Shown here: piece by piece, positions 1,224-55,540 of the stretch | How positions within the stretch are numbered: the stretch's first letter is position 1 | How the letters are laid out: the number at the start of each line of letters is the position of its first letter | Origin: a virus | Strand: one strand, 5' to 3' | Virus record (IMG/VR): IMGVR_UViG_3300047560_001264 | Location: 1-56,108 of that record | Length of the DNA: 56,108 nucleotides | The notes under the pieces: model-generated | Told to the model about the DNA's origin: nothing | Databases searched by the model: none | The model's input: the letters and a program-made list of their open reading frames with translations, nothing else | Translations under genes and position numbers: made by a program

Positions 1224-1324
1224 ATAAGGCACATTTATTCAGGCATCATATAGGCGAGAGGACTTTAGACGCTCATCCCTCAGTAAATATTCTGCGTGTC
1301 ATCTTATAGGATAAACAAGATGAC
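1224..1324 (+). promoter_or_regulatory. Structured leader of queD with start-codon hairpin
   Basis: GTCATCTT (1298-1305) and AAGATGAC (1317-1324) form a perfect 8-bp stem. The 3' arm contains the queD ATG (1320-1322) and the AGGA ribosome site (1308-1311) lies in the 11-base loop. Directly upstream, GAGG (1258-1261) can pair with CCTC (1278-1281), and ACGC (1269-1272) with GCGT (1294-1297), giving an H-type pseudoknot topology ending one base before the start hairpin. An 11-base motif CATC(A/T)TATAGG occurs twice (1244-1254 and 1300-1310). A regulatory role is inferred; the pseudoknot stems are only 4 bp each. Confidence 0.45.
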
Positions 1325-1871
1325 TTGGATCATTGATAAAACTTTTGAATTCTGTTATGGCCACAGAGTTCATACTCAAACACTTAACGGCGAATATGCC
1401 GCTGACTTAAAATGTGCCTGCCGTCACTTACACGGGCACGAAGGTAAAATGCAAGTGCATTTAACTGGTAACGGATTAGATAATACTGGTATGGTTACAG
1501 ACTTTAGACATTTGGAATGGCTAAAGAAATGGATCAATGAGTTTATTGATCACCAATTTATTATTGATAGAAACGACCCACTTTATGATAAAATTATTGG
1601 AGACCGCGGGCTTGTGCCTGTTTATGTTCCTGGCACTGAGTTCATTGCAGGACATCATTTGGATCTCTCAGGGCTTGAACCAAACAGTCCTGAATATGAA
1701 TACTTTGAAGGCTTTATGGTTGTTGGATTTGTTCCTACTTCAGAGCACCTTAGTTCATGGATGGCAGAGCTCGTTGAAGCAAAAATGACAAAACTTGGAG
1801 TTAAAGTCCACAGCATTGAGTGGTGGGAAACTCCTAAGAGTCGCAGCGTATTTTATAGAGACGGTGTTTAA
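1320..1871 (+). CDS. queD: QueD-like 6-carboxytetrahydropterin synthase / 6-pyruvoyl-tetrahydropterin synthase family
   Basis: 183 residues. ATG 1320 is chosen over GTG 1296 because AGGA lies 8 bases upstream. T-fold signature residues are present: His15, the CxxxHGH motif (Cys34, His38, His40) for zinc binding and catalysis, the G-M-V-T-D-F strand at about 57-62, an Asp-His pair at 77-78, and a C-terminal Trp/Glu-Thr segment. The family converts dihydroneopterin triphosphate to 6-carboxytetrahydropterin, the second step towards preQ0. It is longer than typical ~120-residue bacterial QueD because of an insertion at about residues 85-140. With FolE (54842-55540) and DpdA (50587-52467) it fits a 7-deazaguanine DNA modification pathway. 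It heads an operon behind the promoter at 1190. Confidence 0.85.
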   Translation: MTWIIDKTFEFCYGHRVHTQTLNGEYAADLKCACRHLHGHEGKMQVHLTGNGLDNTGMVTDFRHLEWLKKWINEFIDHQFIIDRNDPLYDKIIGDRGLVPVYVPGTEFIAGHHLDLSGLEPNSPEYEYFEGFMVVGFVPTSEHLSSWMAELVEAKMTKLGVKVHSIEWWETPKSRSVFYRDGV

Positions 1872-2025: not shown

Positions 2026-2032
2026 GGCACAA

Positions 2033-3052
2033 ATGGGCAAGATTGGCTTTGCGTGTAAATGGATTGATTTCCCGCACCAAACAGACGGCATCAAACCAAC
2101 TGATGACTGTAAGAAATACAACACTAATACAACTACTATTACTTGGTTAAATAAACAGAGTAGAGATGTTGCAGAACAAAAACTTTGGGATATTACTGAC
2201 CAAAACCTAGCAGCAGTTTATAACTTAGTAGAGCGTGTAGGGGAACTAGATGAACAACTCCGTATGGTCCGCATTGGAAGTGATATCCTCCCTGCTTACA
2301 CTCATGAGCTTTTTCGCGATTATTATAAGCGAGTGGATGTACTGGCAAAGCTCGAGCAGGGATTTTCGAAAATCGGAGTTTTGGCTCGCAATAAACAAAT
2401 ACGCCTTTCAATGCACCCTGGGCAGTTTTGCGTTCTGGCTTCTGATAATCCTGGTATCGTTGAGCGTTCAATAGAGGAATTTGAATATCATGCGGATATG
2501 GCACGGTTTATGGGATATGGCAAAACATTTCAAGACTTTAAAATCAATGTTCATATCTCAGGAAAGCAAGGCCCAATGGGAGTCATTGCTGCGTTGGATC
2601 GGATGAGCCCCGAGGCTCGAAATTGTATTACTATTGAAAACGAGGAAAACTCACATGGATTGGATGACTGTCTCAGTATTAGCGATACTGTACCTATCGT
2701 GCTCGATATACATCATCACTGGGTTCGCGAAGGTGAGTACATTTTACCAGAAGATGCCCGAGTGCAGAAAGTCATTGATAGTTGGCGGGGCATTCGTCCT
2801 ACTATGCACTATTCCATTAGTCGTGAAGATGTACTTGTGGGTCATGCCACTGATGATCGGCCAGACATGGAGTCTCTGCTATTAGAAGGGCACAAAAAAC
2901 AAAAGTTGCGAGCTCACAGCGACTTTTATTGGAATAAGGAAGTTAATAATTGGGCAATAAGTTTCACAGACCAGTTCGACATAATGTGCGAAAGCAAGGG
3001 CAAGAATTTAGCAAGTATGGAACTGTACAATCAAATGAAGGGAACAGTATGA
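2033..3052 (+). CDS. uvdE: UV damage endonuclease (UvdE/UvsE family)
   Basis: 339 residues from ATG 2033, with GGTAAGG just upstream. UvdE is a TIM-barrel metal-dependent nuclease that nicks DNA 5' to UV photoproducts and starts an alternative excision repair. Family motifs occur in order: KIGFACKW at the N-terminus, LSMHPGQF, INVHISGKQG, TIENEE, VLDIHHHW and the C-terminal HSDFYW, supplying the His, Glu and Asp metal ligands. The length matches family members (about 300-350). It is coupled to the small membrane protein upstream and overlaps the next gene by ATGA. The shared early-type promoter with queD suggests expression soon after infection, when incoming damaged DNA would be repaired. 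A 14-base perfect palindrome lies inside at 2361-2374. Confidence 0.9.
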   Translation: MGKIGFACKWIDFPHQTDGIKPTDDCKKYNTNTTTITWLNKQSRDVAEQKLWDITDQNLAAVYNLVERVGELDEQLRMVRIGSDILPAYTHELFRDYYKRVDVLAKLEQGFSKIGVLARNKQIRLSMHPGQFCVLASDNPGIVERSIEEFEYHADMARFMGYGKTFQDFKINVHISGKQGPMGVIAALDRMSPEARNCITIENEENSHGLDDCLSISDTVPIVLDIHHHWVREGEYILPEDARVQKVIDSWRGIRPTMHYSISREDVLVGHATDDRPDMESLLLEGHKKQKLRAHSDFYWNKEVNNWAISFTDQFDIMCESKGKNLASMELYNQMKGTV

Positions 3053-3925: not shown

Positions 3926-15582
<11,657 letters not shown>

Positions 15583-15583
<1 letters not shown>

Positions 15584-23163: not shown

Positions 23164-24771
23164 ATGTCAAGCAAAATTCAACTAAGACGCGATACATCAT
23201 CAAACTGGACCGCGACAAATCCTATACTAGCCCAAGGCGAGCCGGGATTAGAAACAAACACAAATAAAGTCAAGTACGGTGACGGCACAACACGCTGGAA
23301 CTTACTGGACTATGCCGCAGGTGGTTCCGCAGCCGCCGGCGACTTTACTACAGGTTTTGAAGACGGTGTAGATGATAAAACTTATCACCTAGTTCGTGTA
23401 CAAGGTAAGAAAGAGTTTGACTTCCGTACAGAAGGTTATATGAAGATTGATATCACTATCACAGAAGCTATGCTTGTTGATATTGGTAACGGCAACTTGA
23501 CATTTAATGCTACAGATACTCCAGAAATCGCTGATGTATGGTTGACAAACACTCGTGGCAATAACATTAACTTCTACATGAAGAGCGACTACGAAACAGG
23601 AAACTACAGCAACTGGTATAACGGATTAACTAATCCAGCCGATGGTATATATGTAACTCCTGCTCCTGTACCGTTTAACGTCGGTGATCAAATCGTTTGT
23701 AAGTACTGGTCGGAAGGTACTACCTATACTGGCAGTTATTATGACAACAACGGTTGGTACTATCCAGATACAACTAGCTCAGGACCTAGCAACGAAGTAA
23801 CTATTAATGTTACATATACTCCTTGGCTAGGCGACGGAAGCCCTGGTACAACACTATATGATTTGGCAGATCCAGCACTACTATCTAAACACAGTTTAGA
23901 TTTCCAATCAACTAGTGATTATGCCAGCAATCTACGCAACATCACTAACATTGTCGATAACAACGATGGAACACTGACATTTACATTTGATGGTGTTCCT
24001 ATCCAAACAAATGCTATTACACTAACTACATTCCAGTTTACCGCAGTTGATACACAAGAAAATAATTGGTACTTGACTATCCCTAATGCGATTTATCCAA
24101 CATTTAACACTGACTGTATGAATCCGTACGATGCTCAATACTATACCAACAATATCGCACAAAGTGGTACAGTAACTATCAACGGTGGTGACCCAATAGT
24201 GTTTTACTGGTATGGCAACAGTGACGGCAACAACGGTAACTTCTGGATTAATAAAGCCGATGGCAGTTGGACTTACAACCAAGGTGACACCATTGTAGTT
24301 AACTTTTACAAACATACTACATTAATCACCATTAATACCTATCGTCCAGATAACGCACAGTATAACTGGAACAACGGTTACAAGTGGTTTGACTGGAAAG
24401 ATGACATTGCTACAGAATATAGCCCAGGTCGTGGCAATGGTATAGCAGGCGGTCAAGGACAGTTGTACATGGTAGGATTCAAGGCACCTGGACAAAATGG
24501 TAACGGTGGCGCTAACACAAGTTTAATAACACAGTTTGGTTGGGCAGGACTAGGTAACTATCAACGCAGCCCATACGATCCTTATACACAAGATAATGCT
24601 GATAACAAAGGTTCTTACGGTTGCTATCCGATGAACAACTTTGATGACAATGGTATTGTATTCTATAACAATAATACTGACAACGATTGGAGTCAAAGTT
24701 GGAAGATCCGTATTGTCTATAGATTTGATCTAATTATTGGCGCTGAAGACAACAGCTGGTTCGATTGCTAA
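23164..24771 (+). CDS. Tail fibre with Mtd-like N-terminal module
   Basis: 535 residues; GGAG precedes the ATG. The first 55 residues (KIQLRRDTSSNWTATNPILA, then NKVKYGDGTTRWNLLDYA) are clearly homologous to those of the 1290-residue fibre at 18427, suggesting interchangeable tips on a common anchor. The rest is Asn/Tyr/Trp-rich (for example YDNNGWYYPDTTS, WNNGYKWFDWKDD), consistent with a carbohydrate-contacting beta domain, but no named fold is recognised. A late-type octamer lies just upstream, so it may be expressed separately from the upstream fibres. It ends one base before the pirin-like gene. Confidence 0.7.
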   Translation: MSSKIQLRRDTSSNWTATNPILAQGEPGLETNTNKVKYGDGTTRWNLLDYAAGGSAAAGDFTTGFEDGVDDKTYHLVRVQGKKEFDFRTEGYMKIDITITEAMLVDIGNGNLTFNATDTPEIADVWLTNTRGNNINFYMKSDYETGNYSNWYNGLTNPADGIYVTPAPVPFNVGDQIVCKYWSEGTTYTGSYYDNNGWYYPDTTSSGPSNEVTINVTYTPWLGDGSPGTTLYDLADPALLSKHSLDFQSTSDYASNLRNITNIVDNNDGTLTFTFDGVPIQTNAITLTTFQFTAVDTQENNWYLTIPNAIYPTFNTDCMNPYDAQYYTNNIAQSGTVTINGGDPIVFYWYGNSDGNNGNFWINKADGSWTYNQGDTIVVNFYKHTTLITINTYRPDNAQYNWNNGYKWFDWKDDIATEYSPGRGNGIAGGQGQLYMVGFKAPGQNGNGGANTSLITQFGWAGLGNYQRSPYDPYTQDNADNKGSYGCYPMNNFDDNGIVFYNNNTDNDWSQSWKIRIVYRFDLIIGAEDNSWFDC

Positions 24772-24772
24772 T

Positions 24773-25441
24773 ATGATCAAAAAACGCCCTGCTAACACTA
24801 GAGGCGTTATTGATAAGAAAGGTTCTATATTAAGTTATAGGACCTTTCATTTTCAAGAGTACTTCAACTTTGACTATATGAACTTTGGAGCATTGGAAAC
24901 CATCAATGACGATCGTGTAGAACCTGGATACCATGTTGGTAGACACAAACACACCAACAGAGAAATCTTTGGTTATGTTGTAGACGGGCCGTGCTATCAC
25001 ATTGATGACACACGGACCATAGAAATACCTTCAGGTGCTGTACAACGTATGAGCTCAGGATCAGGTATGTTTCACAGCGAAGGCAATGCCAGTGATAAAC
25101 CTGTGCGCTACTTACAGCTATGGATTCGCAGTGATGAAAAGGATGCAGCCCCTAACTACGGTTGGCATCAGTTTACTCGTGAAGATAAGTTAAACAAGTT
25201 CTGCGATATCACAGCCGAACTACCTATTAGAGCAGATGCCCGTTTATTAGCTGGTATTTTTACAGAATCATTTAACTACACACTTAATGATGCACGTAGA
25301 TACTATCTTTACGTTGTTAAAGGCACTGGGACAGTTAATGGCGACACTTTCATAGAAGGAGATGGGTATGCGTTTACTAACGAAACTCAGCTGAGTATTA
25401 CTAGCGTAGATAGTGAGATTTTGTTGTTCGATTTGAGATAA
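24773..25441 (+). CDS. Pirin-like cupin protein
   Basis: 222 residues from ATG 24773, immediately after a fibre gene; the frame is open upstream but has no plausible start there. The N-terminal half matches the pirin/quercetinase-type bicupin: YHVGRHKHTNREIFGYVVDG, then CYHIDD, PSGAVQRMSSGSGMFHSEGN and RYLQLWI. The His-x-His and Glu/His positions are the usual cupin metal ligands. Cellular pirins are iron-binding and have varied roles, so the reaction here cannot be told. A pirin inside a tail-fibre operon is unusual; it might modify or chaperone a fibre, or be cargo from the host. A 13-bp hairpin lies inside the gene at 24817-24848. Confidence 0.75.
   Translation: MIKKRPANTRGVIDKKGSILSYRTFHFQEYFNFDYMNFGALETINDDRVEPGYHVGRHKHTNREIFGYVVDGPCYHIDDTRTIEIPSGAVQRMSSGSGMFHSEGNASDKPVRYLQLWIRSDEKDAAPNYGWHQFTREDKLNKFCDITAELPIRADARLLAGIFTESFNYTLNDARRYYLYVVKGTGTVNGDTFIEGDGYAFTNETQLSITSVDSEILLFDLR
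24817..24848. other. Long intragenic hairpin in the pirin-like gene
   Basis: GAAAGGTTCTATA (24817-24829) pairs with TATAGGACCTTTC (24836-24848): 13 base pairs with a single T-G wobble and a 6-base loop. It begins 44 bases after the start codon. No T tract follows, so it does not look like a terminator. Confidence 0.6.
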
Positions 25442-36764: not shown

Positions 36765-37622
36765 ATGACTGATTACTATTCTATTTTAGGTGTTAGCGAA
36801 AATGCTAGCCCAGACGAAATTAAAAAGGCTTACCGAAAGTTAGCCAATCAGCATCATCCTGACAAGGGCGGCGACCAAGCCAAATTCAAGGATATCAGCG
36901 TTGCATATGATACGTTGGGTGATGCAAATAAGAAAGCTGAGTACGATCAACAGCGCATGTTTGGTGGACGCCAGCATCACTTCCACACTGGCAATGGTGG
37001 ATTCCAAGACTTTAATGATATATTTGGTGGAGGCTTTGATCCATTTGGACATAGATCAAATCCGTTTGCGGATATTTTTGGCCGCCAACTTCGTAAAAAT
37101 CGCGATTTGAATATCCAATGCCAAATCAGCTTATTGGATTCATTTATTGGAAAACAGCTGGAAGCAAACTTCCAACTACCAAGCGGAAAGTCACAAACTG
37201 TGGCAATTACTGTACCAGCTGGTGTTATCCATGGTGATACAATCCGCTACGCAGGGCTGGGGGATGACACAGTTCCACAACTACCACGTGGCAACTTGAA
37301 TGTTACAATCCTAGTAATGCCAGATCCAAACTTTGAACGTAGGGGTGATGACCTTTACACAACTTTGGACATCAATCCCATTGAGTCAATGATTGGCTGT
37401 AGAAAGACAGTAAAAACGATTACTGGATCAACAATGGATTTGGAAATTCGACCAGGTGTTGAGTCTGGGGTTGAGTTTGCAAGCTCAGGCGGTGGATTTA
37501 CTAATATGAATACCAAACAAAAGGGCCGTTTTGTTACAGTGGTGAGAATTAGAGGTAATGCAATCACTGATCCGACCATCGTTGCCCAACTCAAAACTAT
37601 AAACGAAACCATTAACAAATAA
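36765..37622 (+). CDS. dnaJ: DnaJ/CbpA-like co-chaperone
   Basis: 285 residues. The N-terminal J domain is complete with the HPD motif (residues 31-33) needed to stimulate DnaK ATPase, followed by a Gly/Phe-rich linker (FNDIFGGGFDPFGHRSNPFA) and the two beta-sandwich substrate-binding domains typical of DnaJ C-termini. The Cys-rich zinc finger is missing, so it is a class B (CbpA-like) protein. It should recruit host DnaK to phage-chosen substrates. No Shine-Dalgarno sequence is visible before ATG 36765. It has its own strong sigma-70-type promoter and is followed by clpA with another. Confidence 0.9.
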   Translation: MTDYYSILGVSENASPDEIKKAYRKLANQHHPDKGGDQAKFKDISVAYDTLGDANKKAEYDQQRMFGGRQHHFHTGNGGFQDFNDIFGGGFDPFGHRSNPFADIFGRQLRKNRDLNIQCQISLLDSFIGKQLEANFQLPSGKSQTVAITVPAGVIHGDTIRYAGLGDDTVPQLPRGNLNVTILVMPDPNFERRGDDLYTTLDINPIESMIGCRKTVKTITGSTMDLEIRPGVESGVEFASSGGGFTNMNTKQKGRFVTVVRIRGNAITDPTIVAQLKTINETINK

Positions 37623-37623
37623 T

Positions 37624-37651
37624 TTGACATTTACATTCTTTAATGTATAAT
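37624..37651 (+). promoter_or_regulatory. Sigma-70-type promoter for clpA
   Basis: TTGACA (37624-37629), 16-base spacer, TATAAT (37646-37651), immediately after the dnaJ stop. A perfect dyad TACATT-CTTT-AATGTA (37632-37647) fills the spacer. Confidence 0.85.
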
Positions 37652-37687
37652 GATTAAACAAACCCATATTAAACAGAAGGATATCTA

Positions 37688-39943
37688 ATGGTTGAACCTA
37701 GTGATAATTTACAAGTAGTGTTTGAAAAAGCAATTGATACTGCTAAAAAACTGCACCACGAATACTTAACTATTGAGCATTTGCTATTTGCTATGCTCTT
37801 AGAAGATACATTTACTAATACCGTTCAAGGTTATGGTGCAAATGTGTCAAAGTTAAAAGATAATCTTATGGATTACCTCCAGAATAAGTGTAATGAGATC
37901 ACTATCTCTGACGTAGTAGTCAAACCCAAGAAGACACAAAGCGTTGAGCGTGTTCTTAATCGCGCCTTCACACAAGTCTTGTTTAACGGACGCCAACGTA
38001 TTGAGCCAACGGATGTTTTCCTCGCCATGATGGGTGAGAAGCGTAGCTGGGCGCACTACTACATTGCACAAGCAGAAATCGACAAAGATAAATTTGCAGA
38101 CTACCTCAACACTGGTACAGATGGTGAGGAAGAAGGTATTAAAGCACCTGCTGATGCAAGTGATAAAGCACTCAAGTCATTCACAACTGACTTGAATGAT
38201 GCTGTTAAGAAGAATAAAATTGATCCAGTTATTGGCCGTGTAGATGAGTTGGAAAACATTGCATTGAGCTTGGGTCGCAGAAGTAAAAACAACGTAATCC
38301 TTGTTGGTGATCCTGGTGTAGGTAAGACTGCTATAGCAGAAGGACTTGCCTATAATATCGTTAAGGGTGCAGTTCCAGAATTCCTCAAGGATTACACAGT
38401 TTATAACTTGGATATCAGTGCTATGCTTGCTGGGTCTAAGTACCGCGGTGACTTTGAAGAGCGTTTCAAACAAGTTCTCAAAGCACTGAGCAAGAAGGGT
38501 AAGACTGTATTGTTCATCGACGAAGCACACATGATTAGCGGTGCTGGTTCAGCTAACAATAGTGCCAACGACTTGGCTAACATGATGAAACCTGCGTTGT
38601 CCAAGGGCAATATTAAGGTTATTGCAAGCACTACATGGGAAGAATACCGTAAACACTTTGAGAAGGACCGTGCTTTAATGCGCCGCTTCCAACGTATTAC
38701 AGTTGACGAGCCATCACAAGAGATGACTTTGCAGATCCTTAAAGGAATCAAGAAGTATTACGAGAGTCACCATGATGTTAAAATCAAGGACGATGCATTA
38801 CAAGCAGCAATTAAGCTATCTGTCAAATACCAAGCTGATAAGAAGCTTCCAGATAAAGCAATTGACTTGATTGACTTGGCATGTTCACGTTTTAACTTGA
38901 AACTTGCTGATACTCGTGTTGTTTCTGAAGCAGAAATTCAGTATGAACTTGCCAAGGTTGTTAACCTTCCACAGGAACAAGTTGCAGAAACTGAAAGTCA
39001 TAACCTCTCAACACTGCAAGATAAGTTGCAAACTGAAGTTTATGGACAATCAACTGCTCTTACTGAGATTATTGATAAGATCCTAGTAGCACAAGCTGGT
39101 TTGAAACCAGAAAACAAGCCAATTGGTAGCTTTGTATTCATGGGACCAACTGGTACAGGTAAGACTGAGACTGCGAAAGCACTTGCAAAACACTTGGGCA
39201 CTAAGCTCTTGCGTTTTGATATGTCAGAATATCAGGAAAAACACAGCATTTCCAAACTTATTGGTAGCCCACCTGGCTATGTTGGGTTTGAAGATAACGC
39301 TGGTTTGTTGATTACGCAGATCCAAGAATGCCCAAATGCAGTACTATTGTTTGACGAGATTGAAAAGTCACACCCTGATGTTGCAACAGTGTTGCTACAG
39401 ATGATGGATAACGGCTTTATCACTGGTTCAAATGGTAAGCAAGCAGATTGCCGCAACCTAATCCTCATTCTTACTACTAACGCTGGCGCACAATCAGCTG
39501 AGAAGAACAAGATTGGCTTTGGTGAGCAAGAGAAAGAGTATAGCGATGCTGACTTGAAGAAGTTCTTAACTCCAGAATTCCGTAACCGCTTGGATGGTAT
39601 CATTACCTTTAACAAGTTGGGCAAGGAAACAATGGTTAAGATTGTTAACAAGTTCATCGATGAGCTCAAGGAACAAGTCAAAGAGAAGAGTATCCGTATC
39701 AAGATCAATAAGGAAGCAATTGACTGGCTTATTGAGAAGGGCTTTGATGCCAAGATGGGTGCTCGTCCGCTACAACGTGTTATTGACAAGGAAATTAAAC
39801 GTGACCTTGCTAAGATGATGTTGTTTGGTGACTTAAAGAATGGTGGTTGGGCCACTATTACAGTAGATGATGATAAGATCGCTATTGTAGCCAAAAGCAA
39901 GGAACCCAAAGTTCCATTGCTAGCTACTGAAAATGCAGCTTAA
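37688..39943 (+). CDS. clpA: ClpA-type AAA+ unfoldase
   Basis: 751 residues; AAGGA precedes the ATG. Order of domains: Clp N-domain (residues ~5-145, EYLTIEHLLFAMLLED), first AAA+ ring (GDPGVGKT, LFIDEAH), second AAA+ ring (GPTGTGKT, VLLFDEIEK) and D2 C-terminal domain (GARPLQRVIDKEIK). The ClpB middle coiled coil is absent, and length matches E. coli ClpA (758). An IGF tripeptide at residues 609-611, in the position of the ClpA IGL loop, should dock on host ClpP. It may direct host or phage proteins to degradation. Encoded just after dnaJ behind its own promoter; its end overlaps the next gene by 11 bases. Confidence 0.92.
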   Translation: MVEPSDNLQVVFEKAIDTAKKLHHEYLTIEHLLFAMLLEDTFTNTVQGYGANVSKLKDNLMDYLQNKCNEITISDVVVKPKKTQSVERVLNRAFTQVLFNGRQRIEPTDVFLAMMGEKRSWAHYYIAQAEIDKDKFADYLNTGTDGEEEGIKAPADASDKALKSFTTDLNDAVKKNKIDPVIGRVDELENIALSLGRRSKNNVILVGDPGVGKTAIAEGLAYNIVKGAVPEFLKDYTVYNLDISAMLAGSKYRGDFEERFKQVLKALSKKGKTVLFIDEAHMISGAGSANNSANDLANMMKPALSKGNIKVIASTTWEEYRKHFEKDRALMRRFQRITVDEPSQEMTLQILKGIKKYYESHHDVKIKDDALQAAIKLSVKYQADKKLPDKAIDLIDLACSRFNLKLADTRVVSEAEIQYELAKVVNLPQEQVAETESHNLSTLQDKLQTEVYGQSTALTEIIDKILVAQAGLKPENKPIGSFVFMGPTGTGKTETAKALAKHLGTKLLRFDMSEYQEKHSISKLIGSPPGYVGFEDNAGLLITQIQECPNAVLLFDEIEKSHPDVATVLLQMMDNGFITGSNGKQADCRNLILILTTNAGAQSAEKNKIGFGEQEKEYSDADLKKFLTPEFRNRLDGIITFNKLGKETMVKIVNKFIDELKEQVKEKSIRIKINKEAIDWLIEKGFDAKMGARPLQRVIDKEIKRDLAKMMLFGDLKNGGWATITVDDDKIAIVAKSKEPKVPLLATENAA

Positions 39944-46676: not shown

Positions 46677-46692
46677 TTGCTGTATAAGGTAA

Positions 46693-46746
46693 GGCGGGCC
46701 ATAATCCGCCAATTAGGTGTTTTGCGAGCCGGAAGTCGCAATGGAG
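46693..46746 (+). promoter_or_regulatory. Tandem hairpins before gene 43 (possible gp43 translational operator)
   Basis: Two hairpins, each with an 8-base loop starting GCC: GGCGG-[GCCATAAT]-CCGCC (46693-46710) and TTGCGA-[GCCGGAAG]-TCGCAA (46722-46741). The second abuts the GGAG ribosome site (46743-46746) of gene 43. In T4, gp43 represses its own translation by binding a hairpin with an 8-nucleotide loop at the same place. The analogy is inferred. Confidence 0.55.
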
Positions 46747-46757
46747 AATATTACAAT

Positions 46758-49424
46758 ATGAGCTACGTAGACGCATGGTATGATCGTGAGAACGATTTTA
46801 TCAAAGTCGTAGAACGTAATACAAAAGGTGAAAGGGAATTTAGAGACTACCCCATTCGTCATACGTTCTATGTTAAAGACCCCAAGGGCAAATTTACATC
46901 AATTTACGGTGAACAACTATCACGAATTGTTTGTAAAAGTACAAAAGAACTTCGTAAAGAACAATCCATTAATAGTGGACGGGCAATGTATGAAGCAGAC
47001 TTTAATCCAATTTTCGTTACTCTAAGCGAAAACTACAATAACCAAGACGCACCAAAACTCAATACCGCATTTTTCGATATTGAGGTAGACTTCGATCCAG
47101 AACGTGGCTATGCGGCACCAGACGATGCCTTTATGCCAATCACTGCTATCGCTGTCTACCTACAATGGATGGAAACTATGGTTTGTTTGGCTGTACCTCC
47201 AAAGACTATGACTATGGAGCAAGCCAAGGAAGCCGTAAAAGAGTTCCCAAATACATTACTGTTTGAAACAGAAGCAGAAATGTTGGATACATTCCTTGAT
47301 GTTATCCAAGATGCAGATATTTTGAGTGGTTGGAACAGTGAAGGTTTCGATATTCCATATACCGTTAACCGTGTTATCAAAGCGTTAAGCAAGGAAGATA
47401 CAAGACGTCTGTGCTTGTTTAACCAATTTCCTAAACGTAGAGAATACGAGAAATATGGTAAGGACGCAGTAACATATGATTTGATTGGCCGTGTACACAT
47501 GGACTATCTCGAATTGTATCGCAAGTACACATATGAAGAACGCCATAGCTATCGCTTGGATGCGATTGCAGAATATGAGCTTGGCGAACGTAAGACACAG
47601 TACGAAGGCACTTTAGACCAGTTATACAATAATGACTTTAAGACATTCATTGAATATAACAGACAAGACTGTGCGCTTCTTGATCGTCTTGACAAGAAGC
47701 TAAAATTCCTCGACCTTGCTAACACACTTGCCCATGAAAACACAGTATTGCTACAAACTACAATGGGTGCTGTAGCTGTAACTGAACAGGCTATTATTAA
47801 CGAAGCACATCGCAGAGGTTTCCAAGTTCCAAATCGCATTAAGATGGATGAACGTGATGAAGGTCAAGCTGCTGGTGCGTATGTTGCGTATCCGAAGGAA
47901 GGATTGCAAGATTGGGTCGGTTCATTAGATATTAACTCACTTTATCCTTCAGCCATTCGTGCATTAAACATGGGACCAGAAACAATTATCGGTCAGTTAC
48001 GCACAAATGGTACAGACGCAGCTATTGAAGCGTTAATGGCTAAGGGCAAGAGCTTTAGTGCAGCATGGGAAGGTATGTTTGGTACGATTGAGTACGAAGC
48101 AGTTATGGCACAAGAGATTGGTACCGACATTACCATTGACTGGGAAAACGGTGAAAGTGATGTTGTTAGTGCCGCTGAAGTTTACAGATTAATTTTTGAA
48201 AGTAATCAGCCTTGGATGTTAAGTGCTAACGGAACTATCTTCACTTATGAGAAAGAAGGTATTATCCCTGGATTGCTAAAGCGTTGGTATGCAGAACGTA
48301 AAGAAATGCAGGCTAAACTTAAAGAAGCAATCAAAGCAGGTAACAAGATTGAAGAAGAATACTGGGACAAACGTCAGTTGGTTAAGAAGATTAACTTGAA
48401 CAGTTTGTATGGTGCTATTCTTAACTCTGGATGCCGCTTCTTCGATAAACGAATTGGGCAGTCTACTACACTCACTGGCCGCCAAATCGTTAGACACATG
48501 GCTGGTAAAGTTAATGAGATTATCACTGGTGATTATGACTATCGTGGTAAAGCAATTATCTATGGTGATACTGACTCATGTTACTTCTCAGCATATAAGA
48601 CACTTCAAAAGGACATTGACAAGGGAGTTATTCCTTGGACAAAGGACTCAGTAGTTGCATTGTATGACCAAATCGGTGAAGAAGTTAACAGCACGTTCCC
48701 GCAATTCATGTTGGATTCATTCCATTGTCCGAAGTCACGCGGTGAAGTTATCAAAGCAGGACGTGAAATTGTTGGTTCAAAAGCATTGTTCATTACTAAG
48801 AAACGTTATGCTGTTCTTTACTACGATAAAGAAGGCAAGCGCAGTGATGTGGACGGTAAGCCAGGTAAGATTAAAGCTATGGGATTGGATCTCAAGCGTT
48901 CAGATACACCTGACTTTATTCAAGACTTCTTAAGTGATGTTTTGGAAATGGTTTTAATGGGTAAACTTGAATCCGAGGTTTTAGATTTCATTAGTGAATT
49001 TAGAACAAAGTTCAAATCTAGACCAGGTTGGGAGAAAGGATCTCCTAGACGTGCAAATAACATTACTGAGTATCAAGCTAAAGAAGCTAAACAAGGTAAA
49101 GCTAACATGCCAGGGCACGTTAGAGCAAGTATTAACTGGAATACACTGAAGAGAATGTTCGATGACAAGTACTCAATGGGCATTACTGACGGTGCAAAGG
49201 TTATTGTGTGTAAATTGAAAACAAATCCACTGGAATACAGCTCAGTTGCATATCCAGTTGACGAACTTCGTTTGCCACAGTGGTTTAAGGATTTACCTTT
49301 TGACCACAATGAAATGGAAGCTGTACTCATCGATAAAAAGTTGGATAACTTAATTGGTGTATTAAAGTGGAACATTCAAAACACAAGTGAACGTAATACA
49401 TTTAATAGTCTATTCGACTTTTGA
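46758..49424 (+). CDS. 43: DNA polymerase, family B (gp43-like)
   Basis: 888 residues from ATG 46758 with GGAG 11 bases upstream; a TTG at 46677 is in frame but lies in the leader. All proofreading motifs are present (FFDIEVDF near residue 107, GWNSEGFDIPY, YNRQDCALLD) and all polymerase motifs (SLDINSLYPSAIRALNMG near 391, KKINLNSLYGAILN, IYGDTDSCYF near 603, KKRYAVL near 680). The length matches T4 gp43 (898). The C-terminus ends NTFNSLFDF, like the clamp-binding tail of T4-type polymerases. It replicates the phage genome with the clamp-like protein encoded next and the loader at 30258. The leader carries tandem hairpins. Confidence 0.97.
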   Translation: MSYVDAWYDRENDFIKVVERNTKGEREFRDYPIRHTFYVKDPKGKFTSIYGEQLSRIVCKSTKELRKEQSINSGRAMYEADFNPIFVTLSENYNNQDAPKLNTAFFDIEVDFDPERGYAAPDDAFMPITAIAVYLQWMETMVCLAVPPKTMTMEQAKEAVKEFPNTLLFETEAEMLDTFLDVIQDADILSGWNSEGFDIPYTVNRVIKALSKEDTRRLCLFNQFPKRREYEKYGKDAVTYDLIGRVHMDYLELYRKYTYEERHSYRLDAIAEYELGERKTQYEGTLDQLYNNDFKTFIEYNRQDCALLDRLDKKLKFLDLANTLAHENTVLLQTTMGAVAVTEQAIINEAHRRGFQVPNRIKMDERDEGQAAGAYVAYPKEGLQDWVGSLDINSLYPSAIRALNMGPETIIGQLRTNGTDAAIEALMAKGKSFSAAWEGMFGTIEYEAVMAQEIGTDITIDWENGESDVVSAAEVYRLIFESNQPWMLSANGTIFTYEKEGIIPGLLKRWYAERKEMQAKLKEAIKAGNKIEEEYWDKRQLVKKINLNSLYGAILNSGCRFFDKRIGQSTTLTGRQIVRHMAGKVNEIITGDYDYRGKAIIYGDTDSCYFSAYKTLQKDIDKGVIPWTKDSVVALYDQIGEEVNSTFPQFMLDSFHCPKSRGEVIKAGREIVGSKALFITKKRYAVLYYDKEGKRSDVDGKPGKIKAMGLDLKRSDTPDFIQDFLSDVLEMVLMGKLESEVLDFISEFRTKFKSRPGWEKGSPRRANNITEYQAKEAKQGKANMPGHVRASINWNTLKRMFDDKYSMGITDGAKVIVCKLKTNPLEYSSVAYPVDELRLPQWFKDLPFDHNEMEAVLIDKKLDNLIGVLKWNIQNTSERNTFNSLFDF

Positions 49425-49503: not shown

Positions 49504-50235
49504 ATGAAAGATTTTTTACAAGACTTAGTAGCACACGTACACTCACTAGGATTCTTACCACTAGCTAAAGTTAGCGCATCAACAACAGCAACAGAAGTTG
49601 AATCAATGTCCGATGACCGTTCAGTCATCCTTAAAGGTACAACAAAGAGCCCAGTTGGCGATTTGGAAGGTACTTTTGGTATGCCAAACTTAAACAAGTT
49701 GGACTTACACTTAAAGTGTCCAGAGTACAAGGATGGTGCAGTTATTAACGTTGTAAAGGAAACACGCAACAATGTTGAACTGCCAACTGGTATTCACTTT
49801 AAAAACGCAGCAGGCGACTTTAAGAACGATTATCGCTTCATGAACGAGGCAATTATCAACGAAAAGTTGAAGACAGTTAAGTTCCGTGGCGCAAGCTGGG
49901 ACATTGAAGTAACTCCAACTGTATCTGCTATCCAACGTTTGAAGTTCCAAGCAGCAGCACACAGTGAAGAAACTGTTTTCCAAGTATCAACTAAGGACAA
50001 CAACTTAGTATTCAGCTTTGGTGATGCAAGTACACACGAAGGTAGCTTTGTGTTTGCACCAAACGTTACTGGTAAACTAAAGCAAACTTGGGCATGGCCA
50101 GTTAGCCAAGTACAAGCTATCTTAAACCTAAGTGGTGATATCACTTTGAAGATTTCAGACGCAGGTGCTATGCAAATTAGTGTTGATAGCGGTATTGCAG
50201 TTTACGACTACATCTTACCAGCACAGACCAAGTAA
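49504..50235 (+). CDS. 45: Probable sliding clamp (gp45-like)
   Basis: 243 residues; CGGAG precedes the ATG. Similarity to T4 gp45 (228 residues) is distant: size, alternating strand/helix layout, a G-x-x-N-LNKL-x-L segment (GMPNLNKLDLHLKCPEYKDG) in the place of the T4 DLNGFLGIL motif, and the C-terminal strand SGIAVYDYILPAQ. Position directly after gene 43 is as expected for clamp and polymerase genes, though no gp62 or regA intervenes. The clamp encircles DNA, tethers the polymerase and, in T4, couples late transcription to replication. It could instead be an unrelated conserved protein, but size and context favour the clamp. Confidence 0.6.
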   Translation: MKDFLQDLVAHVHSLGFLPLAKVSASTTATEVESMSDDRSVILKGTTKSPVGDLEGTFGMPNLNKLDLHLKCPEYKDGAVINVVKETRNNVELPTGIHFKNAAGDFKNDYRFMNEAIINEKLKTVKFRGASWDIEVTPTVSAIQRLKFQAAAHSEETVFQVSTKDNNLVFSFGDASTHEGSFVFAPNVTGKLKQTWAWPVSQVQAILNLSGDITLKISDAGAMQISVDSGIAVYDYILPAQTK

Positions 50236-50585
50236 TGAGCTTTGATCAACTTACACTAGGAACCTTGGCGTTCCTAGTTATAGGATACTTCACTTATAGA
50301 GGTTGCGGGTGGGAAAATATTCGCAACTGCTATAAGATGTGGTTTGAAAAAGGTTACTGGACTAGTTACAATATTGTTGAAGCAATTAGTTGGGCCGCAA
50401 AGGCCGCCATTATTATTCCTGGTTTAATATTTGGAATACAAGTATGGCAACTATATTGGGTAGCATTAATAACTAGTTTTGGTCTAATTTGGGCTAGTCA
50501 CAAAAAAGCACTTCCCAGCCTAGTTGCATTTAACACAATATGGGCATGGATTAGTTGTATGGTATTAGCACAGCATTTAATTTAA
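50235..50585 (+). CDS. Small membrane protein, three to four TM segments
   Basis: 116 residues; start overlaps the preceding stop (TAATG). Hydrophobic segments at about residues 6-20, 48-66, 70-86 and 95-113 suggest a compact inner-membrane protein; short loops carry RGCGWENIRNCYKMWFEKGY. No family is recognised. It is co-transcribed with the clamp-like gene and DpdA, whose start follows after one base. Some nicotinamide-riboside-type or queuosine-precursor transporters have small Trp-rich membrane domains, but this protein is too short to claim such a role. Confidence 0.6.
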   Translation: MSFDQLTLGTLAFLVIGYFTYRGCGWENIRNCYKMWFEKGYWTSYNIVEAISWAAKAAIIIPGLIFGIQVWQLYWVALITSFGLIWASHKKALPSLVAFNTIWAWISCMVLAQHLI

Positions 50586-50586
50586 T

Positions 50587-52467
50587 ATGGCAAAAGATAA
50601 CTTAACAAATAAACAAAAAGATTACGCATTGTTTTTACCAGCACTTAGTGGCTTCTACGCCACATTTATTGGTAAACAACGTGTAAACAACGACTACGTT
50701 GACCCAGCAAGGCTCCCTGATGGTATTAAAGATATGGAAGAGCTAAACTGGTTAAATCCTGACAAAGGATTGTTCCCTTACAAGTGGAGTTTGTACTCTG
50801 CAGGTCACGCAAACTTGGACCTAACTATACCTGATCCAGGTGAAGATATGGTCCGCGATCGTGATCCTAGCGCAATCATTCTAGGTGACTCTGGAGGATT
50901 CCAGATTGCCAAGGGACAATGGCCAGGTAACTGGAAAGATCCAGACAGTGCAGAAGTTGCCGCTGAATTAGTTAGTGCAACTGCACGTGGCACTGAAGTA
51001 CGCACTATTGTTGACCCAGTAACTAAGAAGTCTAAAACTATCACAGTTGACTTAGTGAAAGAACACCACAAACTTCTTGCAGATGCACAGAAGAAGCGTG
51101 ATGGCGTTTTAAAGTGGCTCGATGGTGTTTCTAATTACGGCATGGTACTTGATATCCCAGCATGGGTTGCAAATACTCCTGAAAGAGATGTCTGCGGTGT
51201 TCGTACATATGACGAAGCTGTTGCCGCTACACAATACAATAACGAATACTTCATCAAACACCGCAAAGGTGTAAATGATGGTGGTACAAAGTTCTTGAAC
51301 GTTATGCAAGGTAGCAATCACGCACAAGCAAATGATTGGTATGGCAAGATGAAAAAGTATTGCGACCCAAATCAATATCCAGATAAGCACTTTAATGGCT
51401 GGGCGTTTGGTGGTCAAACTAAAACTGACGTACACTTGATGTTAAAACGTCTTGTTGAAATCCGCTTTGACGGTTTGATGCAACAAGGTAAGCAGGATTG
51501 GTTGCACGTACTTGGTACAAGTAAATTAGAATTTGCATTGTTATTGACTGACGTCCAACGAGCAATTCGTAAGCACGTTAATCCTGATTTTACAATTAGC
51601 TTTGACTGTGCAAGTCCATTCTTGGCAACTGCTAACGGTCAAATTTACTATCAATCAAGAGTTGGTAAGAATCCAAATAGTGTTCCCACAAACTTGAACT
51701 TAACTACTGATCTCTTTGATTATAACGATGAAGACTTGTACTCAGACCACAAGGCTTGGAGTTATAGAATGATCAAGAGCTTGGACGATAAAAAGTACGC
51801 TATTGACCATCGTTCATTCCGTGATGCAGCAATGCAAGACTTTCCAAAGCGTTTCCCTAACTTTGAAGACAGTCCAATTACTGAGCTATGCGAAGTAAAT
51901 GATATTTGCTTCTACAAAGATGGTGTTCGTAAAACTGATGCTGAGATTGCTGCTGAAGAAGGCATTGCAATCGATAAAGTTCAGTTTGACTTTAAGAAGA
52001 AAGAACACTATCATGTAATACCAGACCTAAATAAGATCGATAAAATTGGTCGTACAAGCTGGGATAGTTTTAGTTATGCCCTACAAATGGGTCATAATGT
52101 TTATTTGCATATCTTTGCAGTACAAGAAGCAAACAGACAGTATGATGCAGGTAGTTTCCCACAAATGATGGAATACCAAGGTAGTCCAAAGAAGGATAAG
52201 TTTAGAGATGTTGTTGATGCAATCTTTGCAGCACCTACTAAAGATGATGCGCTTGCAATTATTGATCATTACAATTTGTACTGGATGGAAATCTTGGGCA
52301 ACCACGGATACATTGGTAAGAAAGTAATGAACGCAACAACACATTACGAAAATATGAAGGCAAACGGGATTATTGAAGAAATCGACTTGTCAGAAGGTAT
52401 GGCAATGGACCAAGCTGAAGACGAAGCACGTGAAACCGTAAGCAAAGACTTTAACCCTGATTTATAA
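50587..52467 (+). CDS. dpdA: DpdA-like DNA guanine transglycosylase (TGT family)
   Basis: 626 residues. TGT-fold signatures: ILGDSGGFQIAKG with the first catalytic Asp (Asp101), NVMQGSNHAQANDWY, the GWAFGG substrate-binding loop, LHVLGTSKLEFALLLTDVQR and SFDCASPF with the probable nucleophile Asp340. The TGT zinc-site Cys cluster typical of tRNA enzymes is not apparent. Size and divergence match the DpdA group, which replaces guanine in DNA with a 7-deazaguanine; phage DpdA proteins are known to protect DNA from restriction. FolE (54842) and QueD (1320) supply early steps of the base. It lies in the clamp operon, so modification may be coupled to replication. Confidence 0.85.
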   Translation: MAKDNLTNKQKDYALFLPALSGFYATFIGKQRVNNDYVDPARLPDGIKDMEELNWLNPDKGLFPYKWSLYSAGHANLDLTIPDPGEDMVRDRDPSAIILGDSGGFQIAKGQWPGNWKDPDSAEVAAELVSATARGTEVRTIVDPVTKKSKTITVDLVKEHHKLLADAQKKRDGVLKWLDGVSNYGMVLDIPAWVANTPERDVCGVRTYDEAVAATQYNNEYFIKHRKGVNDGGTKFLNVMQGSNHAQANDWYGKMKKYCDPNQYPDKHFNGWAFGGQTKTDVHLMLKRLVEIRFDGLMQQGKQDWLHVLGTSKLEFALLLTDVQRAIRKHVNPDFTISFDCASPFLATANGQIYYQSRVGKNPNSVPTNLNLTTDLFDYNDEDLYSDHKAWSYRMIKSLDDKKYAIDHRSFRDAAMQDFPKRFPNFEDSPITELCEVNDICFYKDGVRKTDAEIAAEEGIAIDKVQFDFKKKEHYHVIPDLNKIDKIGRTSWDSFSYALQMGHNVYLHIFAVQEANRQYDAGSFPQMMEYQGSPKKDKFRDVVDAIFAAPTKDDALAIIDHYNLYWMEILGNHGYIGKKVMNATTHYENMKANGIIEEIDLSEGMAMDQAEDEARETVSKDFNPDL

Positions 52468-52471
52468 TTTT

Positions 52472-53044
52472 ATGCAGCACAATAGTATTGAATCTAAATT
52501 AATCGGCAAAATCCTACCACCCACCTTTGCTGGTGAAAGTGGTAGGGGTTTGGAAGATCTTCTAGAGTCCATTGGTATCCCAATTAACCGCGGATCTGGT
52601 GTCGATTGTTTAATTTTTGATTTTGAAGTTAAATCACGCGACATTGACGCAATTAGTCCACAAACTGTTTGCACAATGACGTTTAATGACATCATCGCAA
52701 CTCCATACGCCAACTCCCGTGTTCGAGAAAAATTCCAACGACAATTTAGAGTAAAAACTAAACACAATGTCATTATATCCGCAGAAATGTATGACTTCTC
52801 ACATCGATTGATTCAAAATCTAATCGAAGAAGCTTATGAGACAGCGAGAGCATCACTAGCTGCATCACAAACAAATGGTGCTTGCCACGGAAAATGGATG
52901 CCAGCGTATGTTCCGGGTACCAAGTGGGGCTATTTGGAAAACGTTAACACTGCCACAAATTCATACCACTTTAGGATTTCCCACGGTGCCATGGACGATT
53001 TTGAAGCCATGTCACACTCAACACTAAGTAAACTTTTCGAATAA
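52472..53044 (+). CDS. Putative PD-(D/E)XK endonuclease next to dpdA
   Basis: 190 residues, four bases after dpdA. The segment GSGVDCLIFDFEVKSRDIDA gives Asp45 followed by Glu52-x-Lys54, the D...ExK metal site of PD-(D/E)XK nucleases, preceded by a helix with Glu22/Glu28 (GESGRGLEDLLESIGI) as in MutH/Sau3AI-like enzymes. The C-terminal half ends YHFRISHGAMDDFEAMSHST, like conserved proteins of aquatic T4-like phages. Adjacent to a DNA base-modifying enzyme it could be a modification-sensitive nuclease that attacks unmodified host or competitor DNA; this is inference. A strong hairpin lies at 52513-52546. Confidence 0.6.
   Translation: MQHNSIESKLIGKILPPTFAGESGRGLEDLLESIGIPINRGSGVDCLIFDFEVKSRDIDAISPQTVCTMTFNDIIATPYANSRVREKFQRQFRVKTKHNVIISAEMYDFSHRLIQNLIEEAYETARASLAASQTNGACHGKWMPAYVPGTKWGYLENVNTATNSYHFRISHGAMDDFEAMSHSTLSKLFE
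52513..52546. other. Strong hairpin near the start of the nuclease gene
   Basis: CCTACCAC (52513-52520) pairs with GTGGTAGG (52539-52546), and inside it CACC (52522-52525) with GGTG (52532-52535) around a TTTGCT loop. It begins 41 bases into the gene and has no T tract. Confidence 0.6.
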
Positions 53045-53445
53045 TGAACACAACTATTAGACAAAACATTCGCCCACTTAAGATGATTTGGGTTACCTTT
53101 CAAAAGGAAGGTATCCACAAGTATCCAGCGGCTTTAACTGATCCAGCACTTGCAACAGGAGATGAATATGATGTATCGTTTTTGGGTCATCCCCATCGTC
53201 ATATTTTCCATTTCCGGGTGTGGATCAATGTGCAACATAATGACAGAGACATCGAATTCATCCAGTTCAAACGCTGGCTCGAGTCGCTGTATAATGGTCA
53301 AGGTGCCACTATAAGCCTTGACTATAAAAGTTGTGAGATGATGTCAGATGAATTACATGACATTATCACGCAAAAGTATCCAGGTCGCGAGATTTGGATT
53401 GAGGTCTCCGAAGACGGAGAAAATGGTTCTTTTATTCAATATTAA
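53044..53445 (+). CDS. Conserved phage protein, possibly a divergent T-fold (QueD-like) protein
   Basis: 133 residues, start overlapping the previous stop (TAATG). The layout resembles 6-pyruvoyl-tetrahydropterin synthase/QueD proteins: HPHRHIFHFRVWINV (compare CxxxHGH-x-Y strand), IEFIQFKRWL (compare V-x-DF-x-x-LK), ISLDYKSCEMMSDELHDII (compare LDH ... PTxE-x-x-A) and IWIEVSEDGENGSF (compare V-x-V-x-ET). The catalytic Cys and HGH are altered, so it is not an ordinary QueD. It may be a repurposed T-fold protein in 7-deazaguanine metabolism, or an unrelated protein with similar strands. The context between DpdA and FolE supports the first idea. Confidence 0.5.
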   Translation: MNTTIRQNIRPLKMIWVTFQKEGIHKYPAALTDPALATGDEYDVSFLGHPHRHIFHFRVWINVQHNDRDIEFIQFKRWLESLYNGQGATISLDYKSCEMMSDELHDIITQKYPGREIWIEVSEDGENGSFIQY

Positions 53446-53466
53446 ACAAAACAAAGGAAAGCTATT

Positions 53467-53730
53467 ATGGCTAAAAACTACAAAGACTATTCTTATTTCG
53501 AAAACCGTCCTGACATCGTTAAGATTTTTGACGATTTGGAAGCATTTAAGGATTTCTGTAGAATCGAAATGCACCCGTTCAACGAAGCGGATCTTTACAA
53601 TCGCGATAGTTGGGTATGGCGCAACTTTGACAAGAGCCGTCGCCCTAAAAAGGCATGGAATGGTGAACGTAAGCCTTACCAAGGCAAGAACCCACGCCCA
53701 CAATACAATAACAGATACGAGACAAACTAA
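53467..53730 (+). CDS. Small conserved basic protein of unknown function
   Basis: 87 residues; AAAGGAAAG precedes the ATG. The first half is aromatic and acidic (DYSYFENRPDIVKIFDDLEA, FKDFCRIEMHPFNEADLY) and the end is basic and probably disordered (SRRPKKAWNGERKPYQGKNP). It resembles small conserved proteins of T4-like aquatic phages, function unknown to me. The stop overlaps the glycosyltransferase start (TAATG), so it may assist that enzyme or bind the DNA substrate. Confidence 0.6.
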   Translation: MAKNYKDYSYFENRPDIVKIFDDLEAFKDFCRIEMHPFNEADLYNRDSWVWRNFDKSRRPKKAWNGERKPYQGKNPRPQYNNRYETN

Positions 53731-54806
53731 TGAAAAAACCTAACATTTGGATCTTTAGTCTAGAGCCTTTGGACTCTAGATATACTAAACAGTGGCATAC
53801 TAATATCCCCGAGATTTTGGCGGCCGCTGCTGGTGACAGATTCAATGTTAGGCAAGTTGATGGCGTTCAACGAACTGCAAAAGTTACTAACGGTGCATTT
53901 CTAAATTTTAGTGATACTAATTATTGGAAAAGCACTCAACTTGCAAATTTCGTTGAACTTCTCGATGCAGGTGAAACTACGCCCAATGATAAAATTTTAA
54001 TCACTGATGCGTGGAATCCTTGCATTACTCAACTTGCATACATGCGTGATTTGTTAGACCAGAAATGGGAACTACACGGTATTTGGCATGCCGGTGCATA
54101 TGATCCAAGTGATATTCTTGGATACAAGATGCAAAAACCTTGGCCATGGGAAGCAGAAAGAAGCTGGTTTTACAGTCTAGACTTTAACTACTATGCTAGT
54201 AACTTCCATAAAGATATGTTCTTAAAGAACTTGGATATTAAACCTGAGTTCCATCATAGAGCAGTACGTAGCGGACAACCACACGGTGAGATTATTACAT
54301 CAATGAAACCGTATATGAATGTTCGCAAGTCAAGTGATAACCTTATCATGTGGCCACATCGCTTTAATGCAGACAAGCAGCCTGAAATTGCTGTAGACTT
54401 AGGCAACGATTTCAACATGGTTATTACACAAAAGCTATCACTTTCTAAAGACGAATACTACGCAAAATTGTCTGAAAGTAAAGTTATGTTTAGCTGTGCA
54501 TTACATGAAAACCTCGGTATTAGTGTAATGGAAGGTGTATTAGCTGGGGTAATTCCAGTATTACCTGATCGTTGCAGCTATAAAGAAATGTATTTGCCAC
54601 AATTCAAGTACCCAAGTGAATGGACTGCTAATTTTGAATCATATCAAAAGCACAAGGCAGAGTTAGTTGATTTCATCAACCATCGAATTCATAATCGTGA
54701 TCAATACATGCATTTGTTGCAAGATCAACTCAACATACTGAGACAGGAATATTTGACTGCTAATGTAATGGTTGAAAAAATCACTAGACTTGACTCTACG
54801 ACCTAA
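53730..54806 (+). CDS. GT-B type glycosyltransferase
   Basis: 358 residues, start overlapping the previous stop. The C-terminal domain contains the nucleotide-sugar motif region FSCALHENLGISVMEGVLAG followed by VIPVLPDRCSYKEMY, typical of GT-B (GT4-like) enzymes with the E-x-x-G-x-x-x-x-E pattern. The N-terminal half is a plausible acceptor domain (WIFSLEPLDSRYTKQWHTNI ... HGIWHAGAYDPSDILGY). There is no TM segment or signal peptide, so it acts in the cytoplasm. In this operon the acceptor could be a modified DNA base, as with T4 glucosyltransferases, but a protein or metabolite acceptor is equally possible. Confidence 0.7.
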   Translation: MKKPNIWIFSLEPLDSRYTKQWHTNIPEILAAAAGDRFNVRQVDGVQRTAKVTNGAFLNFSDTNYWKSTQLANFVELLDAGETTPNDKILITDAWNPCITQLAYMRDLLDQKWELHGIWHAGAYDPSDILGYKMQKPWPWEAERSWFYSLDFNYYASNFHKDMFLKNLDIKPEFHHRAVRSGQPHGEIITSMKPYMNVRKSSDNLIMWPHRFNADKQPEIAVDLGNDFNMVITQKLSLSKDEYYAKLSESKVMFSCALHENLGISVMEGVLAGVIPVLPDRCSYKEMYLPQFKYPSEWTANFESYQKHKAELVDFINHRIHNRDQYMHLLQDQLNILRQEYLTANVMVEKITRLDSTT

Positions 54807-54809
54807 ATA
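54802..54809 (+). promoter_or_regulatory. Possible late promoter octamer (CCTAAATA)
   Basis: Two mismatches from TATAAATA; overlaps the glycosyltransferase stop and lies 32 bases before the folE start. Weak. Confidence 0.3.
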
Positions 54810-54841
54810 CATTACACTTTAATATTACATAGGATTTTTAC

Positions 54842-55540
54842 ATGAGTGAAGGGAAAAATTTAAGTCAAGTAATCAGAGATCAAATGAAGGCCCAAGGCAA
54901 ACGCTTCTGGGCAGGTGATAACATCAGTGATTACATTGACGAGGAACAAAAAGCGGCTCTAATTGGAGAAGCGACAGTAGCATTTGAAGGTGTCCTCGAT
55001 GCATTACTAATTGATCGTGAAAACGACCCAAACTCGCATGGTACTGCGAAGCGTTTAGCTAAGATGTACTTTAACGAAATTATGGCAGGAAGATATGAAC
55101 CAGCACCAGACGCAACTGCATTTCCAAACGATTCGCAAGACCGTTATGAAGGTATGCTTGTTGTTCGCTCTGAGCTTAGGAGCATGTGCAGTCATCATCA
55201 CCAACCTGTTTCCGGCGTTGCTTATATTGGTATTATTGCTGCTCAGAAACTTATTGGGCTCAGCAAGTATACAAGAATCGCACAGTGGTGTGCAAGACGA
55301 GGTACTCTCCAGGAGGAACTTTGTAATGACATTGCCCGCGAGATTAGCAAAGCAACTGGTTCAGAAAACGTAGCTGTGTATATTCAAGCGACTCACGGAT
55401 GTTGTGAAAACCGTGGCATTATGGCACATAGTAGTCTTACACAAACTACAGTTCTGCGTGGTGCTTTCCACGACGACGCTGGTACAAAGAAGGAATTCTT
55501 TGATAACATTAAGCTGCAACAGGAATTTGCACCACGATGA
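54842..55540 (+). CDS. folE: GTP cyclohydrolase I (FolE type)
   Basis: 232 residues; AGGA lies 7 bases before the ATG. Family motifs are intact: RSMCSHHHQPVSGVAYIGII with zinc Cys116 and the His pair 118-119, LIGLSKYTRIAQWCARRGTL, LQEEL, and ATHGCCENRG with the second zinc Cys187; E. coli FolE (222 residues) has the same spacing. The enzyme opens GTP to dihydroneopterin triphosphate, the shared precursor of folate and 7-deazaguanines. In phages with QueD and DpdA it boosts flux into base modification. The DpdA-to-FolE arrangement supports that use here over folate synthesis. The stop overlaps the next small gene. Confidence 0.93.
   Translation: MSEGKNLSQVIRDQMKAQGKRFWAGDNISDYIDEEQKAALIGEATVAFEGVLDALLIDRENDPNSHGTAKRLAKMYFNEIMAGRYEPAPDATAFPNDSQDRYEGMLVVRSELRSMCSHHHQPVSGVAYIGIIAAQKLIGLSKYTRIAQWCARRGTLQEELCNDIAREISKATGSENVAVYIQATHGCCENRGIMAHSSLTQTTVLRGAFHDDAGTKKEFFDNIKLQQEFAPR

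Follow-up and report, generated by a model that had tools for sequence, protein, structure and literature searches.

The IMG/VR virus record IMGVR_UViG_3300047560_001264, a stretch of 56,108 bases referred to here in its entirety as the window, carries beside a sliding-clamp-like gene a compact operon whose predicted products very likely place a 7-deazaguanine in phage DNA. The reading preferred here, which as a whole we hold at a little better than even confidence, is that the operon forms a QueC-free module whose base is derived from 7-carboxy-7-deazaguanine (CDG), is probably glycosylated, and is inserted behind the replication fork. The identities of the enzymes and the contrast with QueC-bearing phages rest on homology and distribution.

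The operon runs in the order clamp, small membrane protein, DpdA, nuclease, T-fold protein, small basic protein, glycosyltransferase and FolE, with QueD elsewhere in the window, and adjacent genes, counted from the clamp, are separated by -1, 1, 4, -1, 21, -1 and 35 nucleotides. An original prediction made from the sequence alone had proposed a DpdA-based 7-deazaguanine operon with unusual partners (a nuclease, a T-fold protein and a glycosyltransferase) at 50587-55540 beside the clamp-like gene. This proposal is supported, and every open reading frame lies where it had been placed, nearly touching its neighbors. The relevant features, all on the + strand, are as follows.

1320..1871, +: QueD, 6-carboxytetrahydropterin synthase (PF01242, 1.5e-27; phrog_2389, 5e-33); the listed open reading frame spans 1296-1871, with the predicted ATG at 1320
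46677..49424, +: family-B DNA polymerase, gp43-like (52% to the polymerase of Pseudomonas phage PA5oct; C-terminus NTFNSLFDF, considered with the C-termini of 145 relatives)
49504..50235, +: sliding-clamp-like protein in the gp45 position (phrog_12062, 6e-36, a PHROG without a named function), its putative clamp identity drawn from position and gene order
50235..50585, +: small putative membrane protein (hydrophobic sequence; patchy in relatives)
50587..52467, +: DpdA of the clamp-adjacent type, putative DNA guanine transglycosylase (TGT motif order with D101 and D340; hhalign to DpdA2)
52472..53044, +: PD-(D/E)XK nuclease, MutH-like (E28, D45 and E52-x-K54 kept; ends STLSKLFE)
53044..53445, +: T-fold protein, phrog_17812, a divergent QueD paralogue (AlphaFold model, Foldseek matches and residues aligned to E. 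coli QueD)
53467..53730, +: conserved small basic protein, pI 9.2 (position after the T-fold protein)
53730..54806, +: GT4-like glycosyltransferase, module-specific (PHROG match; PF00534 in relatives; E-x7-E)
54842..55540, +: FolE, GTP cyclohydrolase I, as predicted (PF01227, 5e-39; phrog_2197, 8.5e-45)

Recurrence and gene order of the module

The association of these genes is far beyond chance, because the gene set recurs in at least hundreds of contigs. Scans of IMG/VR with DpdA, the T-fold protein and the glycosyltransferase yielded 164 loci found by DpdA or the T-fold protein and 80 found by the glycosyltransferase alone; these and all further locus counts refer to the matches listed and are therefore lower bounds. 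Where all five markers are present, the order clamp, DpdA, T-fold, glycosyltransferase, FolE is kept in 74 of 75 environmental loci, a conservation that the original prediction had named as a check, and in each of the 147 loci having both, the clamp gene precedes DpdA. The small basic protein is the next recognized gene after the T-fold protein in 128 loci, while the small membrane protein occurs in 12 of the 164. The nuclease, the T-fold protein and the glycosyltransferase had been regarded as additions to a standard gene set, a description that suits the patchy nuclease (20 loci, where DpdA and the T-fold protein occur together in 138), whereas the T-fold protein and the glycosyltransferase are conserved core members. 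Each of the 80 loci found by the glycosyltransferase contains FolE, the T-fold protein or DpdA (63, 73 and 67 loci, respectively), and some of them have a different gene order, so the linkage outlasts rearrangement. Cultured carriers of the module are Synechococcus phage BUCT-ZZ01, Sinorhizobium phage Phosso, the PA5oct group and Acidovorax phage ACP17. Phosphoribosyltransferase genes also lie in the module of some relatives (L167:5149-5667; L216:3447-3908) and might salvage the guanine freed by DpdA.

The T-fold protein

By its AlphaFold model (133 amino acids; pLDDT 90), the T-fold protein shares the fold of QueD, of which it is a paralogue without the catalytic Cys and Asp-His. Foldseek placed QueD/PTPS proteins best in the PDB (2dj6 and 4ntk at 1.4e-5 to 1.9e-5, TM 0.63-0.72), and the resemblance to a T-fold noted in the original prediction is thereby borne out at E about 1e-5. 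QueD binds zinc through three histidines and the substrate ring through two glutamates, and its catalysis depends on a Cys (C27) and an Asp-His dyad (D70-H71). Five aligned T-fold proteins keep the equivalents of H16, H31 and H33 of E. coli QueD along with the two Glu residues, and have no counterpart of C27 or D70-H71. The Pfam matches of the T-fold protein, spread over many unrelated families, were unconvincing, and a PDB sequence match to 2hfq at 0.019 was set aside after the fold search. The domain also occurs at the C-terminus of longer open reading frames in Bakedbeans (L217:5212-6363) and MA9V-3 (L219:7431-8312).

The T-fold family accompanies three types of DpdA: the clamp-adjacent type (window, PA5oct, Phosso), DpdA2 (ACP17, Xanthomonas phage X1, BUCT-ZZ01) and the proteins of phiST, MA9V-3, D479, Ahp1 and RHph_I1_18, labeled DpdA3-like here as a designation of our own for the phiST type. 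The names DpdA3 and DpdL for subfamilies reportedly go back to Cui et al. 2023. We consider it fairly probable that the T-fold protein acts on CDG; that it is specifically a CDG decarboxylase is plausible, at slightly less than even confidence. It may be the DpdL reportedly described by Cui et al. 2023.

The glycosyltransferase

The window glycosyltransferase, predicted as such at the outset, matches a PHROG glycosyltransferase at 1.1e-4, and although PF00534 reaches only 0.023 for this protein, it reaches up to 8e-12 in its relatives; 34 of 36 members bear the E-x7-E motif of the GT-B C-terminal domain. A comparison of the glycosyltransferase profile with PDB sequences returned nothing useful. 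Across 50,697 phage records, strong matches to the window type were confined to the PA5oct group, Phosso, ACP17 and X1, all of them genomes with the T-fold protein; four further records match weakly, at 22%, and the one inspected has it in another context. A second type matches only BUCT-ZZ01 and ACP17 in the same records. In BUCT-ZZ01 a second GT4-like protein lies beside DpdA2 (L216:5364-6707) and ends in SLEDFFND, which resembles the clamp peptide described below. Between the glycosyltransferase and FolE, relatives carry genes for a GDP-mannose dehydratase, a UDP-glucose/GDP-mannose dehydrogenase, an epimerase and a DegT protein, and these sugar-nucleotide genes therefore support a real transfer of sugar. 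Whether a DNA base is the acceptor is evenly balanced. In phage T4, phage-encoded glycosyltransferases decorate hydroxymethylcytosine already in DNA with glucose; the step suggested here is alike in assigning a phage glycosyltransferase to a base already in DNA, and differs in the base and in the glycosyltransferase family.

A glycosyltransferase that acts on the cell surface, a protein or some other acceptor that is not DNA belongs to the best surviving alternative, in which the modification is of the known dDG/dCDG type, with the T-fold protein as the CDG decarboxylase DpdL and DpdA inserting the base. Cui et al. 2023 reportedly described DpdL and dDG and dCDG phages, phiST among them, with a QueC-free, CDG-derived base and no glycosyltransferase step. 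phiST does carry the T-fold family; both it and ACP17 have the gene beside FolE, QueD and QueE without QueC, and phiST-type phages have the T-fold protein and no detected glycosyltransferase. Yet the glycosyltransferase is almost exclusive to the module in isolates and in the listed environmental contigs, and remains linked to it through rearrangements, and we regard this alternative as unlikely, though a serious one.

The precursor route and QueC

The base itself is likely derived from CDG without QueC. The original prediction assumed a preQ0 route with QueE and QueC outside the window; QueE was indeed not found on a search of the window, where QueF is also absent, and QueE is present in many relatives (for instance L006, phrog_2076, 4.1e-42). 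The QueC profile was applied to relatives and controls rather than to the window. The search found a full canonical QueC in none of the 11 distinct isolates with the T-fold protein, complete genomes included (D479 gave one partial match and X1 one below the cut-off), and in none of 15 T-fold environmental contigs of 89-245 kb, whereas all five of the DpdA phages examined that have no T-fold protein possess QueC (Fisher p 0.0002; 0.0014 with the partial match in D479 counted as QueC). The preQ0 route is probably wrong, because T-fold phages are without a full QueC and DpdA phages without the T-fold protein have it. Vibrio phage 2.275.O bears the same type of DpdA as the window, PA5oct and Phosso, but with QueC and QueF (the latter found in no other phage searched) and no match to the T-fold protein or glycosyltransferase that accompany it in the others.

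The phage could nonetheless make a standard preQ0-type base, with its own FolE, QueD and QueE and the QueC of its host, in which case DpdA would insert preQ0 or a derivative and the T-fold protein and glycosyltransferase would be unrelated to the base. Hosts commonly have QueC (11 of 14 control genomes exceed the cut-off) and may contribute to the modification of phage DNA (PMC6884629), but the T-fold protein tracks the lack of a full QueC across several DpdA types and the glycosyltransferase is confined to T-fold genomes, which leaves this alternative improbable.

The phage systems with DpdA2, such as that of Vibrio phage nt-1 (PMC6884629), share with the window FolE, QueD and a TGT-like DpdA without the zinc motif of tRNA TGT; nt-1 differs in having QueC and, according to that paper, ArcS, and it gives no match to the T-fold protein or glycosyltransferase. 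ACP17, X1 and BUCT-ZZ01 have FolE, the T-fold protein and a glycosyltransferase near DpdA, with QueE nearby and no full QueC; their DpdA, however, is of the DpdA2 type and their glycosyltransferase is diverged or of the second type. The PA5oct-group and Phosso jumbo phages share the window's type of DpdA, the T-fold protein and the glycosyltransferase and have an annotated QueE and no QueC, but no match to the MutH-like nuclease. PA5oct, like the window, has a clamp homologue upstream of DpdA, whereas in Phosso DpdA is located away from the clamp annotated there and from the T-fold and glycosyltransferase genes. A literature search found nothing published on the DNA chemistry of either.

Identity of DpdA

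DpdA has no family match in Pfam, PHROGs or NCBIfam, and tblastn recovered it in 13 phage records, of which 11 come from Pseudomonas and none reaches 60% identity. Its motif order and profile similarity nevertheless suggest a DpdA of the TGT superfamily. Both of the aspartates highlighted in the original prediction, D101 (DSGGFQ) and D340 (SFDCASP), are present, and they are invariant in 53 aligned homologues. By hhalign the nearest family is DpdA2 (88.8%, E 2.5e-6), followed by the DpdA3-like proteins (E 3.6e-4) and tRNA TGT (E 4.8e-4), with unrelated families at E 0.049 or worse; DpdA1, the 9g type, was not recovered (0.19). The DpdA profile matched nothing in the CP220, 9g and nt-1 records or among PDB sequences. 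The CxCxxC zinc motif is found in 14 of 14 bacterial tRNA TGTs and in none of 56 clamp-type DpdAs. Judged by profiles and motif, the protein stands nearer phage DpdA2 than the tRNA-acting enzymes, and the comparison goes against the refuting condition of the original prediction, a grouping with the latter. That the protein is instead a divergent TGT serving queuosine-type modification of tRNA is, despite the common superfamily of DpdA and TGT, very improbable in view of this missing motif, the closer DpdA2 profile, the replication-gene context and clamp peptide, and the failure of PF01702, positive in 14 of 14 control genomes, to match anything in the window even with E allowed up to 10.

Clamp peptides and the nuclease

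The C-terminal peptide of the polymerase, which we take to be clamp-binding by analogy with T4-type polymerases, served as a reference, and the polymerases of relatives end in sequences that read like TFNSLFEF. A pattern, [FL][NDSTQEAGK]x[LF]F, was chosen after the DpdA tails had been inspected, and was scored with shuffles over the last 80 residues of DpdA and the last 15 of other proteins. Of 139 unique DpdA tails, 101 contain it, where 500 shuffles gave a mean of 7.2 and a maximum of 18. It also occurs in 72 of 74 polymerase tails and in four of 17 nuclease tails (shuffle 0.18), and is absent from the last 15 residues of the T-fold protein, basic protein, glycosyltransferase, FolE and clamp. 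A stricter cut-off, passed by 10 of 149 DpdAs, was judged too severe. The endings of polymerase and DpdA are alike within ACP17 (SLDDLFE and TLDELFE), X1 (SLESLFG and SLEELFG) and 2.275.O (NNTDLFDW and NNNDLFGW). These tails make tethering of DpdA to the clamp likely for the family; for the DpdA of the window itself it is possible, if somewhat doubtful.

The nuclease, proposed originally as a PD-(D/E)XK enzyme, agrees with that assignment in its E...D...ExK core, which is kept in an alignment of 17 proteins, of which one has D-x-K, the D45-E52-x-K54 motif being common to 16 homologues. The MutH profile PF02976 matches weakly, in four of 17 homologues and at best at 0.0023, and comparison of the nuclease profile with PDB sequences gave nothing useful. 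Among the window tails scored, the peptide score of the nuclease is second only to that of the polymerase. Homologues of this nuclease, patchy as it is in the module, also end in clamp-peptide-like sequences.

Proposed pathway

In the QueC-free pathway favored here, FolE and QueD, together with a QueE presumably encoded elsewhere in the window phage, as it is in relatives, would make CDG from guanosine triphosphate (GTP). The T-fold protein would act on CDG in place of QueC or QueF, most likely by decarboxylation to 7-deazaguanine, which DpdA, held to the clamp by a polymerase-like peptide in most relatives, would exchange for guanine in DNA. The glycosyltransferase may then glycosylate the modified base, with donors supplied in relatives by the variable neighboring genes, and the nuclease, which likewise bears a clamp-like peptide, might speculatively cleave DNA in which the mark is missing or wrongly carried.

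Several observations weigh against this pathway. A literature search found no mass spectrometry for the window phage or close relatives. The DpdA model (pLDDT 86) gave only weak TIM-barrel matches in a Foldseek search of the PDB, with no TGT in the best 50, and the direct hhalign comparison of the T-fold and QueD profiles is weak (8.5%). In the window the tail of DpdA is degenerate (THYENMKANG) and the glycosyltransferase is without a clamp peptide, and the T-fold phages with DpdA3-like proteins have no detected glycosyltransferase. The QueC contrast involves few phages without the T-fold protein, some of them related (nt-1, KVP40), and the host could supply QueC; many environmental loci are likewise related, so their counts are not independent events.

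Other features of the window

Elsewhere the window encodes a UvdE-type UV endonuclease (2006-3052; PF03851, 1.6e-36), a pirin-like cupin protein (24737-25441), and a DnaJ-like protein followed by a Clp-type AAA+ ATPase (36765-39943), along with an open reading frame of 3,874 amino acids within a run of probable tail or fiber genes (3959-15583).

Significance

Only tentatively can the module be put forward as a very common environmental system for glycosylated, QueC-independent 7-deazaguanine, in which DpdA and a MutH-like nuclease are tethered to the clamp so that base replacement and checking follow the fork. It may rank among the commoner DNA-modification modules of environmental phages, with a DpdA that belongs to no Pfam, PHROG or NCBIfam family. 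We know of no report of a sugar-bearing 7-deazaguanine in phage DNA, or of such a class of base, and clamp tethering, if true, would account for the access of a post-replicative base exchanger to new DNA. The module may explain how many environmental phages conceal their DNA from bacterial defenses.

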